A DNA stretch of 64,000 nt, from assembly GCA_024693135.1 (NCBI GenBank), contig JAILLN010000013.1, forward strand, positions 1 through 64,000. Reading direction: 5' to 3'. A program made the position numbers and the translations under genes. How positions within the stretch are numbered: position 1 is the first letter of the stretch; each line of letters starts with the position of its first letter. The DNA comes from Lachnospiraceae bacterium (GTDB taxonomy: Bacteria > Bacillota > Clostridia > Lachnospirales > Lachnospiraceae). Below the pieces are notes generated by a model that saw nothing but the letters and a program-made list of their open reading frames with translations, searched no databases and was not told where the DNA came from. Of the stretch, positions 1 to 55,454 are shown piece by piece.

Positions 1-452
1 CTGTTCTTTACACCTTTCATTTTGAGTCGCCTTCCAGCTCCCCCCACGCTGTGCTGATTTGGTTCAGCCTGTGTAACGAATAAAAGAAGCATAAATCGCG
101 ATGAGATAATATATGGTTGAAATAGTCTTCGTTTGCTTCCAAATATTTTGCGAAGGGCGAGCCGCTTGCGTGCCTTGACGTTTCCTAAGGAGCCTCTTAC
201 CGCGAACACGCGGAGATTGCCGCCGGCTTCGACTTGCAAGATCGGCTGTTATGCGAGACAACACGCTTTTTCAGTTGGCTCGCATAGCCGAGATTGCATA
301 GTCGAAGCCAGCGGGAAGCTCCGCATGAAGTGAGCGGTGAGGCGACGTGGAAATGCAAGGCCCGCAGGCGGCGGATCTTTGTCAAGGCCCGCAGGTGGCG
401 CATCTTTACCACAACAGACAAAAGCAGACAAAAGAACCGTCCCCCTGTCTTT
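1..452 (+). repeat. Long palindromic interspersed repeat, copy 1 (left edge cut by window)
   Basis: This stretch is non-coding and matches 54.9-55.3 kb closely. Its core is a very long imperfect inverted repeat: arm 161-257 pairs with arm 279-372 around a loop of about 21 bases. The right part has two tandem copies of a unit of about 27 bases beginning AAGGCCCGCAGG, and the right end reads AAAAGAACCGTCCCCCTGTC (434-449 and flanks), the inverse of the left end of copy 2. No credible reading frame is present. It lies downstream of rho on the opposite side of a hairpin terminator. It could be a MITE-like element or a highly structured RNA; the sequence alone does not decide. Confidence 0.8.
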
Positions 453-32414: not shown

Positions 32415-32501
32415 CGCCGCCTGCGGGCCTTGCATTTCCACGTTGCCTCACCGCTCACTTAATGCGGAGCTTCCCGCCGGCTCCGACTATGCAATCTCGG
32501 C
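32415..32501 (-). repeat. Half copy of the long palindromic repeat (one arm only)
   Basis: Read on the minus strand this is almost identical to the right arm of copy 2 (55174-55260), with one clear base difference. Only that arm is present, in inverted orientation, filling the gap between the CYTH gene and the DJ-1-like gene and ending right at the CYTH stop codon. Confidence 0.85.
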
Positions 32502-32999
32502 CTACATACCTTCCAGCATCACCCCGGGATCCACCTCCGGATCCACTGCCATCCTTGCATTCTTAAACCTCGGATCCTTTGTGACCTCCCGGCCGAACCA
32601 TTCCTCCCCCTCATAGGCCTCCGCCTCCTCCCGGGTCCCGAATTCCACCTCCACCACCTGAAGGGGGACAAAGGGTTCTTCAAAGATATCCAGCTCCGCT
32701 TTCAGCCTCCCCTCCCGGATGGGGATCACATAGCGCTTCTTCCGGATGATCCTTCCGTCATGCTTCGGCAGCATATGCCGGAAAGCCTCCTCCGTGATGG
32801 GCAGATTATATTCTTCATGCATCACATCATCCTGGCCGATCCCTTTATACGTCAGATAATAGGCCTCATTTTCCTTGCGGATCCGGACCGTGGGGGAGAT
32901 ATTCAGATAAGCCTGCTCCATCTCGATCACAGGATAGGAATCCAGCCCATCCGGCACCCTCTTTACCAGCCACTTCCGCTCGATCTCCATATTTTCCAT
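32502..32999 (-). CDS. CYTH domain protein (triphosphate tunnel enzyme-like)
   Basis: 165 residues. The opening EIERKW is the ExExK signature of CYTH/triphosphate tunnel proteins, followed by alternating charged strands (VRIRKENEAYYLTYKG, ELDIFEEPFVPLQVVEVEF). Such proteins hydrolyse tripolyphosphate or nucleoside triphosphates in many bacteria. The start has GGGGGAG 4 bases upstream. The last codons abut a fragment of the genomic repeat, so the C-terminal few residues and the stop may have been altered by that insertion. Confidence 0.87.
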   Translation of the reverse strand: MENMEIERKWLVKRVPDGLDSYPVIEMEQAYLNISPTVRIRKENEAYYLTYKGIGQDDVMHEEYNLPITEEAFRHMLPKHDGRIIRKKRYVIPIREGRLKAELDIFEEPFVPLQVVEVEFGTREEAEAYEGEEWFGREVTKDPRFKNARMAVDPEVDPGVMLEGM

Positions 33000-53507: not shown

Positions 53508-53567
53508 ATTTTGCGGTTCTTGCCGTACCGCCTCATGTTCCAGTCTGATCTCGCGAAAGGAGGGATC

Positions 53568-54632
53568 ATTATCAAAATCACTTCATCCAACATAGGAATG
53601 GAGTCCGAGCGGAACTATACCGAAATGCATAAGGATGTGATACGGATCGGGATCCAAAAGGCCGGAAGCGGCTCCGGCTTTCCCGGTTCCTTTGCCGGCT
53701 ATGGGAAATCCAAAAATCCCGGAAAAGGCCGGTCATTTTACCAAACCCTGAAGGATGCGGCTTACCAACCAAACTACAAGACCGGCGCCCTTCAGAAGCT
53801 CAGGCAGGACACGGAACGGGAGGAACAGGACGCCTATTACCGGATCCGGACCGCCTGCATCGATTATCTCCTGGTCCTCTTTTTGGGCATCGACCCGAGA
53901 GAGCTCCGGGAAAGGAGCATCCATACCGGCCTTTCCTTCTCCTCCGGATTGGAAATGACCTATGGAGAGTATCATTATCATGAAGAAAGCGAAAGCACTA
54001 CCTTTCAGACTGAGGGAAGGGTCTGTACGGAGGACGGCAGGCAGATCTCCTTCGGCCTCACCCTGGAAATGAGCCGGTCCTTCATGGAAGAGACCGCCCA
54101 GGAGGTCCGCATGGGTCCGGTGGAACTGTCCGACCCCCTCGTCATCAACCTGAAGGACTGCCCGGATGTGATCTCCGATCAGGTCTTTTCCTTTGATATC
54201 GACAGCGACGGGGTCGAAGACCGGATCAGCCGCCTCGTGGAGGGCGCAGGGTTCCTTGCCCTGGATAAAAATGAGGACGGCATCATCAACAACGGATCCG
54301 AGCTTTTCGGCGCGGAAAGCGGCAACGGGTTCCAGGATCTTTCGCAATATGACGAGGACAAAAACGGATGGATCGATGAAAATGACTCCATCTTCCAGAA
54401 GCTGAAGATATGGACGAAAAACCATGACGGCAGCAATGTCCTCCTGAGCCTGAAGCAGGCCGACGTGGGTGCGATCTGCCTGCAAAGCCAGGCTACGGAT
54501 TTTACCGTTAAAGACCGGATGAATAATGACACACGGGCAAGGCTTCGAAGAAGCGGGGTCTTCCTCCATGAAAGCACCGGGAGGCCAGGCCTCATGCACC
54601 AGTACGATCTGGCAAAGCAGGCCTACGCCTGA
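53568..54632 (+). CDS. Uncharacterised protein with DxDxDG calcium-binding-like motifs
   Basis: About 354 residues. Family-like N-terminus (KITSSNIGMESERNY), a charged middle region, an ELSDPLVINLKD segment, and a C-terminal region (about 195-345) with three EF-hand/dockerin-like loops: DIDSDGVED, DKNEDGIINNG and DEDKNGWIDEND. No signal peptide or membrane helix. Function unknown. A very strong ribosome site AAAGGAGGG (53556-53564) is followed not by ATG but by ATC ATT ATC AAA, so an ATT (53568) or ATC start is suspected; TTG 53511, ATG 53535 and ATG 53598 are alternatives. It stands alone between glgP and the repeat. Confidence 0.7.
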   Translation: MIKITSSNIGMESERNYTEMHKDVIRIGIQKAGSGSGFPGSFAGYGKSKNPGKGRSFYQTLKDAAYQPNYKTGALQKLRQDTEREEQDAYYRIRTACIDYLLVLFLGIDPRELRERSIHTGLSFSSGLEMTYGEYHYHEESESTTFQTEGRVCTEDGRQISFGLTLEMSRSFMEETAQEVRMGPVELSDPLVINLKDCPDVISDQVFSFDIDSDGVEDRISRLVEGAGFLALDKNEDGIINNGSELFGAESGNGFQDLSQYDEDKNGWIDENDSIFQKLKIWTKNHDGSNVLLSLKQADVGAICLQSQATDFTVKDRMNNDTRARLRRSGVFLHESTGRPGLMHQYDLAKQAYA

Positions 54633-54653: not shown

Positions 54654-55330
54654 AAGACAGGGGGACGGTTTCTTGATTGAAATGTAGGTTTGCGTTTTGG
54701 TTCGCCGAAAAAATGATATCTGCCGGCGCTCGGTCGTTTCTAACCTCGCCCGCCGCCTCATGACAAAATTTCGCTCGGCGCTGTTCTGGTCCTGCGCCAG
54801 GCCGGTTTTCCGCAGGGAAGCGGGCTTTACGGCGCAGGCCCAGCCTTCGCACTCGCGAAATTTGTGAGCCTCGGGCTCGCATAGAAATACCGGCATTAGG
54901 GTCTTGCAGAGTTCCTTTTCCCGGCTCCCCCTCCACACTGTGCATATTGGGTCCAGCCTGCGTAACGAATAAAAGAAGCATAGAACATGAGAAGATATTA
55001 CATGTTTGAAACAGCCTTCGCTGGCTACCATTTATTTTGCGAAGGGTGAGCCGCCTGCGGGCCTTGGTGTTTCCTAAGGAGCCTCTTACCGCGAACACGC
55101 GGAGATTGCCGCCTGCGTAGACTTGCAAGATCAGCCGTCATGCGAGACAACACGCTTTTAAGTTGGCTCGCATGGCTGAGATTGCATAGTCGGAGCCGGC
55201 GGGAAGCTCCGCATTAAGTGAGCGGTGAGGCGACGTGGAAATGCAAGGCCCGCAGGCGGCGCAGACCTGCCACAACGCAAGACCCGCAGGCGGCGCATCT
55301 TTGCCACACCAGACAAAAGAACCGTCTTTG
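54654..55330 (+). repeat. Long palindromic interspersed repeat, copy 2 (complete)
   Basis: About 677 bp. The left end AAGACAGGGGGACGGTTTCTT is the inverse of the right end of copy 1; its own right end keeps only AAAAGAACCGTC. The core inverted repeat has arms 55050-55146 and 55167-55260 around a 20-base loop. The left third (54674-54915) has no counterpart in copy 1, which is cut by the window. In the apical stem two base pairs differ from copy 1 in a compensating way. Frames within it look random, so it is treated as non-coding. It ends 50 bases before tRNA-Thr. Confidence 0.82.
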
Positions 55331-55381: not shown

Positions 55382-55454
55382 GCTGTTGTAGCACAGTCGG
55401 TAGTGCGCCGCATTGGTAGTGCGGAGGTCTCCAGTTCGATTCTGGACAGCAGCA
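55382..55454 (+). tRNA. tRNA-Thr (anticodon GGT)
   Basis: A full cloverleaf of 73 bases: acceptor GCTGTTG / CAGCAGC (one G-T pair), D-stem GCAC/GTGC, anticodon stem CCGCA/TGCGG with loop TTGGTAG, T-stem TCCAG/CTGGA with loop TTCGATT, and discriminator A. CCA is not encoded. Anticodon GGT reads ACC/ACT, hence threonine. Confidence 0.96.

Follow-up and report, generated by a model that had tools for sequence, protein, structure and literature searches.

The earlier note on this locus singled out positions 54654 to 55330 of the window (the window being the whole stretch of 64,000 nucleotides analysed, bases 1-64000 of contig C51) as an interspersed element with a giant imperfect palindrome and compensatory base changes, and left open whether it is a structured RNA or a hairpin-type mobile element. 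The question raised by this locus is therefore what kind of molecule the fold serves, and what keeps its two sides matched. The host genome (G000) comprises 3.19 Mb in 67 contigs and is 88% complete. With a probability only slightly above one half (about 0.52), we read the element as a dispersed, non-autonomous, REPIN/BIME-like element which acts as a long single-stranded DNA hairpin.

Anatomy and copies of the element

The element proved to be real and repeated, with near-full copies at 54654..55330 (copy 2, forward strand) and 34..424 (copy 1, forward strand) and an inverted half copy holding one side of palindrome B at 32415..32502 (reverse strand; 88 bases, 97.7% identical). Copy 1 is incomplete because contig C51 starts at window base 1. 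The prospect raised in the note that no further copies might exist was dispelled by a DNA search of the own genome with element 54654-55330, which returned 81 matching pieces. Furthermore, contigs C11, C15, C21, C29, C31, C33, C34, C35, C41, C42, C51, C63, C65, C66 and C67 of G000 have ends inside or near hairpin A or palindrome B; since many contigs begin or end inside the element, the repeat broke the assembly, and the copy number in G000 is therefore a lower bound. Compared with dinucleotide shuffles of itself, the element stretch gave the better fold in 20 of 20 cases (z -10.7).

The window copy is composite and consists, from left to right, of REP-like end, hairpin A, linker, palindrome B, degenerate direct repeats and truncated REP-like end. 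It is thus larger than had been described, since 54656-55049 comprises a REP-like end and a second hairpin (A) which has relatives in other species. The left end, GACAGGGGGACGGTTTCTTG (54656..54675, forward), is of the same sequence type as that flanking RAYT genes in relatives (L114, L109), and a REP 8-mer lies 66 nt from the core in L001. Hairpin A itself consists of an outer 5' arm (54704..54723, forward; 4-24 nt from the core in L001), a conserved core matched by covariance model R1 at 163.8 bits and E 8.7e-41 (54728..54894, forward; itself one of the 44 sequences in the model), and an outer 3' arm (54906..54925, forward; 11-31 nt from the core), and in this copy the outer arms pair poorly (GATATC vs GAACTC). 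The linker A-B (54926..55049, forward), which by eye carries extra bases in the L006, L007 and L009 copies, leads to palindrome B, the "giant palindrome" (55050..55260, forward; at 162-371 in copy 1). Beyond it lie short degenerate direct repeats of the GCAAGRCCCGCAGGCGGCGCA type (55261..55309, forward), varying in number among copies by eye, and the right REP-like end, CAGACAAAAGAACCGTC (55310..55326, reverse), which is truncated here and complete at 425-449 in copy 1. A tRNA gene follows downstream of the element (55382-55454) and is the sole match of an Rfam scan of the window at gathering level, with none for the element. Just upstream, a 373-codon ORF (53511-54632, forward) without a Pfam match at E 0.001 represents a putative gene.

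Palindrome B

The two compensated pairs reported in the apical stem were exact, 244 G/289 C and 247 T/286 A in copy 1 becoming 55133 A/55177 T and 55136 C/55174 G in copy 2. Over the 25 full copies aligned, all of them from G000, the first of these pairs is G-C in 17, A-T in 7 and unpaired in 1, and the second is T-A in 15 and C-G in 10. Mean column identity among these copies is 92%, and two-sided changes fall mostly in the apical stem. The impression of weaker mid-stem pairing in copy 2 did not hold, as 2 of 65 consensus pairs are non-Watson-Crick in copy 2 and 1 of 65 in copy 1, all of them G-T. Departures from pairing in B, excluding two pairs in which most copies, or all, have G-U, are by tally about equally of G-U and of A-C type. 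Outside G000, palindrome B was found neither among the listed BLAST matches in 48 genus and 299 family genomes nor among the other loci compared (L125-L193, L234 and L284 left out).

Pairing, covariation and wobble in hairpin A

Compensatory change is usually taken as strong evidence for a structured RNA. In alignment A2 of hairpin A, 98.1% of 1716 cells are paired, vs 27.0-43.9% after the partner has been shifted by 1-3 columns, and 23 of the 39 pairs show two-sided changes, so that covariation extends well past the two pairs to which, as the note allowed, it might have been confined. The covariation score is 0.368 vs 0.125 in shuffles (0/500). Further pair types do not rise above the shuffles (35 vs 35.7), and cell counts overstate the number of events since the aligned sequences are related.

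Pairing also reaches outside the core, where the outer arm, 24 nt on each side, matches its partner within each copy. Of 111 forward matches, the 105 copies flanked on each side by 90 nt or more were used for this. The match of left to right arm in G016 is 0.91 within copies and 0.69 between them (22 copies, 0/2000 permutations), and in G003, G046, G002 and G000 it is 0.66-0.75 within and 0.55-0.63 between (each 0/2000). Permutations reached the observed value 13 times of 2000 in G036 and 64 times in G045; the 336 to 674 of 2000 obtained for four genomes with 3 copies each are uninformative at that copy number. The idea that outer arms are unrelated at each locus was rejected, given that within G016 the arms share a consensus and covary.

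The usual view, set out in PMC8794818, is that changes in RNA stems pass through G-U intermediates. Among 4091 pair cells of hairpin A (111 rows, after 18 other rows of alignment A3, 17 opposite-strand readings and one short match, had been dropped), 3922 were Watson-Crick, 46 G-U, 30 A-C and 93 other, with G-U showing in 13 of 39 pairs and A-C in 15 of 39. The control, 30 6S RNA sequences from the genus (out of 31 matches, 13 of which exceed Rfam's cut-off; alignment A4; 31-pair RNAalifold consensus), had 106 G-U and 7 A-C among 929 cells, with G-U in 16 of 31 pairs and A-C in 3 of 31. Wobble is thus about ten times rarer in hairpin A than in 6S RNA (G-U share 1.1% vs 11.4%; G-U/A-C ratio 1.5 vs 15) and barely above A-C. 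Since the covariation is almost purely Watson-Crick, which would place the pairing at the DNA level, the fold appears to be kept in DNA.

A hairpin working as a transcript would account for the strong conservation of pairing and for the covariation, and it is precisely the quality of that covariation, with wobble so scarce beside the 6S RNA, that makes this reading very improbable; the tRNA as the only gathering-level Rfam match in the window and an orientation which differs between species at orthologous sites (see below) weigh against it as well. On these same three grounds the first of the two interpretations offered in the note was set aside, and the second, the hairpin-type mobile element, gained from lineage-specific subfamilies, from empty orthologous sites and from a REP/RAYT association in a minority of copies. 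One count goes against our main reading: on the forward strand the outer arms hold 15 G-U vs 64 A-C (22 poorly matched copies skipped), an asymmetry unlike the prediction of a strand-symmetric DNA reading. Were it due to selection, it would favour the bottom strand; we place little weight on it because some of the cells are probably common by descent, which would inflate the count.

Distribution among genomes

By BLAST, hairpin A occurs in at least 8 of 48 genus genomes, its own included, and by model R1 (core; 44 sequences, 39 pairs) in at least 15 of 48, R1 having been built partly from its own matches, so that matches to its members hold by construction. A family sample of 397 genomes, at least 3 of which belong to the genus, gave at least 10 genomes with a match to R1, 7 candidates being scored per genome; two are of the genus, which leaves 8 of at most 394 genomes outside it. 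Three of these eight (G126, G181 and G099) exceed 56 bits and the other five score 28-36 bits. Very short relatives of 61-71 nt at 34-36 bits, L317 (G114) and L318 (G344), keep the basal motif alone (CTAAGCTC..TTCGT / CTCCG or CTCGG..CTAAGTG), and in G114 two very short relatives stand side by side.

An exact 22-base pattern retrieved 41 stretches from the genome collection, in seven genomes (G003, G009, G011, G016, G036, G045 and G046; records of G000 were possibly left out), all of them Lachnospiraceae and AD3010 among them. Rumen is named in three of the seven titles. The records of AD3010, a named strain, bear no MAG label, and we take this carrier to be a cultured strain. Across the order, a shorter exact pattern matched 1 of 392 genomes, the window's own; the exact pattern is a poor probe, because the carrier G002 was in the sample and yet was missed. 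Phage and plasmid collections gave no match and viral contigs gave 0 matches to the long core pattern; the shorter pattern matched 12 viral contigs, which may be chance, and none of these 12 stretches holds the core by the model.

The core measures about 95-200 nt. In 15 of 105 copies the midpoint of the core falls inside an ORF of 150 codons or more, vs 1425 of 1800 points drawn at random from these loci; the copies are mostly intergenic. By eye, the subfamilies of hairpin A differ between lineages.

Constraint on the fold and behaviour at orthologous sites

Hairpin A carries conserved internal loops (CTAAGCTCA..GTTCG / CTCCG..TTCGCTAAG), which by majority frequency (0.84 over 45 columns) match the stems in conservation (0.79 over 78 columns), the tip being free (0.59). 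Eleven copy pairs were compared, two of which were dropped as repeats of a site; the nine others, sharing at least one flank, differ at 72 of 332 tip positions, 13 of 680 stem positions and 20 of 390 internal loop positions (p about 2e-24). The pair L049/L092 alone accounts for 23 of these tip differences; when it is left out, the counts are 49/292 for the tip vs 28/947 for stems and loops. As the tip varies far more than stems and loops, the latter are constrained and, to judge from these comparisons, the copies under constraint are either stationary or have moved or been replaced recently.

Several species carry a copy at one and the same intergenic site, and since several copies are common to species at orthologous sites, many of them are old and static, which counts against a mobile reading. 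Presence also varies: a syntenic region of G016 with two hairpins lacks both in G025 and G032 and the second one in G017, and in G009 one of the sites holds a lone REP and the other a different hairpin subtype bounded by REP-like sequences. By eye, no clear target-site duplication was seen at the two sites with empty relatives, and this too counts against mobility.

At four site groups the orientation is opposite between species. Both flanks are common at three of them, L082/L050 (93-95%), L220/L233 and L225/L204; at the fourth, a single flank is common to L083 and L092, and L083 and L049 have in common one flank and 60 nt adjoining the element. The copies of L220/L233 and of L225/L204 look like different subtypes by eye, and independent insertion is therefore possible there. 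At L082/L050 the flanks agree on both sides and the tips are not specially alike. The tips of L083 and L092 are mutually closest (0.65, where 18 other tips reach no more than 0.23 and 0.14), a homology that would suit a flip or a recombination between copies; a flip in place is undercut at this site, where one flank alone is common. In no case do the opposite orientations amount to a proved flip.

Pair changes at orthologous sites were surveyed in 16 comparisons. Between more distant species, the changed pairs are two-sided and Watson-Crick in 7 of 7 (L215/L206), 3 of 3 (L033/L230) and 8 of 11 cases (L231/L205), to which 5 of 9 (L220/L233) and 2 of 2 (L225/L204) may be added, these two perhaps not representing the same insertion. 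Between close species, five comparisons together yielded 6 changes, single-sided or unpaired, two others yielded a single two-sided change each, and four showed no change.

These observations bear directly on the main rival, template-switch correction of palindromes, according to which hairpin A is a passive palindrome that spread long ago and whose arms stay matched chiefly through template switching during replication, the fold itself being under little selection. Two-sided changes, homogenisation of inverted-repeat arms and inversion of the loop or spacer are among the outcomes of template switching described in PMC8794818 and PMC8604942. Such a process would deliver two-sided changes that are almost exclusively Watson-Crick, would do so in place at sites such as L215/L206, L033/L230 and L231/L205, and might turn the hairpin around at the three two-flank sites and at the single-flank site with homologous tips. 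Pure correction should, however, erase internal loops which cannot pair, and these are conserved across subfamilies; the tip vs stem and loop differences at the nine copy pairs likewise show a constraint on both stem and loop, and the opposite orientations may instead stem from independent insertions or recombination between copies. A purely passive palindrome is in our judgement unlikely, and we think that both processes act, correction supplying the matching of the arms and selection keeping the loops.

What the selection serves is a further matter. The bulged hairpin, or a cruciform, might bind a host protein concerned with the nucleoid, supercoiling or replication, as proposed for BIMEs, and the conserved internal loops, the conservation of stems and loops relative to the tip at orthologous sites and the mostly intergenic placement would all follow from such a role. 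It is harder to see why a host DNA element should be found in just 15 of 48 genus genomes (a lower bound), come and go at orthologous sites and, by eye, form different subfamilies in different lineages, and we hold this possibility to be quite unlikely.

REP ends, RAYT genes and a possible mechanism

Of 105 copies, 15 have an exact REP 8-mer no more than 400 nt away from the core (10 of the 15 at 58-69 nt), where the background of 2 REP 8-mers in 88,396 bases lets about 2 copies be expected. Six of the 105 have it on both sides within that distance, the two REPs being inverted in 4 of these; degenerate REPs escape this exact count. Its absence within 400 nt in 90 of 105 copies counts against a mobile, REPIN-like reading. 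The REP beside one hairpin of G016 (GGAGACAGGGGGACGGTCCTGTTGTCTCC) also flanks a RAYT gene (L109, L221), and the G016 RAYT protein (L109) matches NF047646, the NCBIfam model of REP-associated tyrosine transposase, at 80.4 bits (cut-off 80); four other proteins match the model below its cut-off. With the RAYT class sorted by hand, RAYT genes and hairpin A are not associated, whether in all genus genomes (5 of 15 with the hairpin vs 8 of 33 others, p = 0.51) or among the 22 best (4/9 vs 4/13), and 16 RAYT-class loci contained no core, which counts against a role for RAYT. A transposase acting in trans, suggested in the note, did not emerge from the window's own genome (88% complete), in which no Y1_Tnp match was found. 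Read by eye, the alignments show no conserved GTAG/GTGG tetranucleotide tag at the foot of the core. As to the features of a MITE, the outer arms, matching within each copy, provide terminal inverted repeats, and with regard to a parent transposon the REP ends are common to RAYT loci; no such sharing is known for the hairpin arms. For the REP ends the RAYT link is good; for the hairpin it is no more than suggestive.

Under the favoured reading of a REPIN/BIME-like single-stranded DNA hairpin, the element would be exposed as single-stranded DNA, e.g., on the lagging strand, and its bulged stem would be recognised by a DNA-processing enzyme acting in trans, the bulges serving as recognition marks. 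It would then reach further intergenic positions by copying or pasting, at times next to REPs. For the enzyme, the best candidate is a REP-associated tyrosine transposase (RAYT/TIRYT). The matching of the arms is probably aided by template switching within the palindrome, which may also turn the hairpin around. A bolder proposal, that hairpin A is a new class of single-stranded-DNA mobile element, using the bulged hairpin rather than a terminal sequence as its mobility code and an enzyme other than RAYT, with arms evolving freely yet strictly Watson-Crick-matched, is tentative and seems to us rather doubtful.

Comparison with known systems

REPINs and BIMEs with their RAYTs, as characterised by Bertels and Rainey (2011, PMC3116915), share with the present element the intergenic placement, the multiple copies, the imperfect single-strand hairpin, the compensatory changes and, as far as the REP ends go, the RAYT link. 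REPs beside some copies, inverted on both sides in 4 of 105, add to the likeness. Unlike REPINs, the core here is about 95-200 nt long with conserved internal loops of its own, 90 of 105 copies are without a nearby exact REP 8-mer, and the presence of RAYT does not track the hairpin. Because tag, two inverted REPs and cognate RAYT were lacking or present only in part, we did not file the element as a REPIN.

In TIRYT (Y1 subclass 2.1), Y1 transposase genes are flanked by G-rich inverted repeats according to PMC6006769, and GGGGACGG in the element ends is one base off the consensus printed there, GGGG[AT][CG]A[CG]; unlike in TIRYT, such repeats would form only the ends here, with hairpin A and palindrome B in addition. 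GTAG- and CGTC-tagged REPs are presented in PMC3733652 as short palindromes with unpaired tags in many phyla, and their dimers as having structured spacers that may fold into stable hairpins. The core of hairpin A is several times longer, and neither tag was seen at its foot; the words Firmicutes and Clostridi are absent from the main text of PMC3733652. ERIC and YPAL, the intergenic palindromes of enterobacteria, of about 127 and 168 bp as reported in PMC2267715, resemble the element in size class, imperfect palindrome and intergenic dispersal. Their hosts differ. To our knowledge, neither wobble-free covariation nor per-copy covariation of arms has been described for ERIC or YPAL. The integron attC site works as a folded single strand; an attC was considered, and is disfavoured by the dispersal of the copies and by outer arms about 24 nt long. 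By analogy, then, the element would act most like a REPIN or BIME, and in size it resembles ERIC or YPAL.

Searches of an open-access library brought up no description of this hairpin family. Its significance lies in strong covariation with almost no G-U, and the G-U/A-C ratio, calibrated on 6S RNA of the same genus, offers a simple test for other surveys of intergenic structures. The family is moreover a natural system for two questions, namely whether what spreads is a folded single strand and whether bacterial palindromes are maintained by template switching.

Structures in and around the hairpins

Several smaller features accompany hairpin A in particular genomes. In the AD3010 clade (L031, L034, L081, L086, L088 and neighbours; G003, G046) the hairpins are surrounded by scattered copies of a second short repeat, TGTCATCCTGAGnG..AGCGACGAAGGATCTT. 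An extra stem of the CAAAACATGCCAAAGGGCATGTTTTG type is inserted in the 3' arm of the core at L098:1018-1212, L196:1262-1455 and L198:948-1141, and this nested stem, a hairpin inside a hairpin, is common to G016 and G002; the core at L221:4258-4457 bears an insert different from the CAAAACATGCCAAAGGGCATGTTTTG type. Inverted pairs of hairpins about 109-162 bases apart occur at L194, L195, L196 and L197 (G002) and at L206 (G031), and in the pairs of G002 the two members look like different subtypes.
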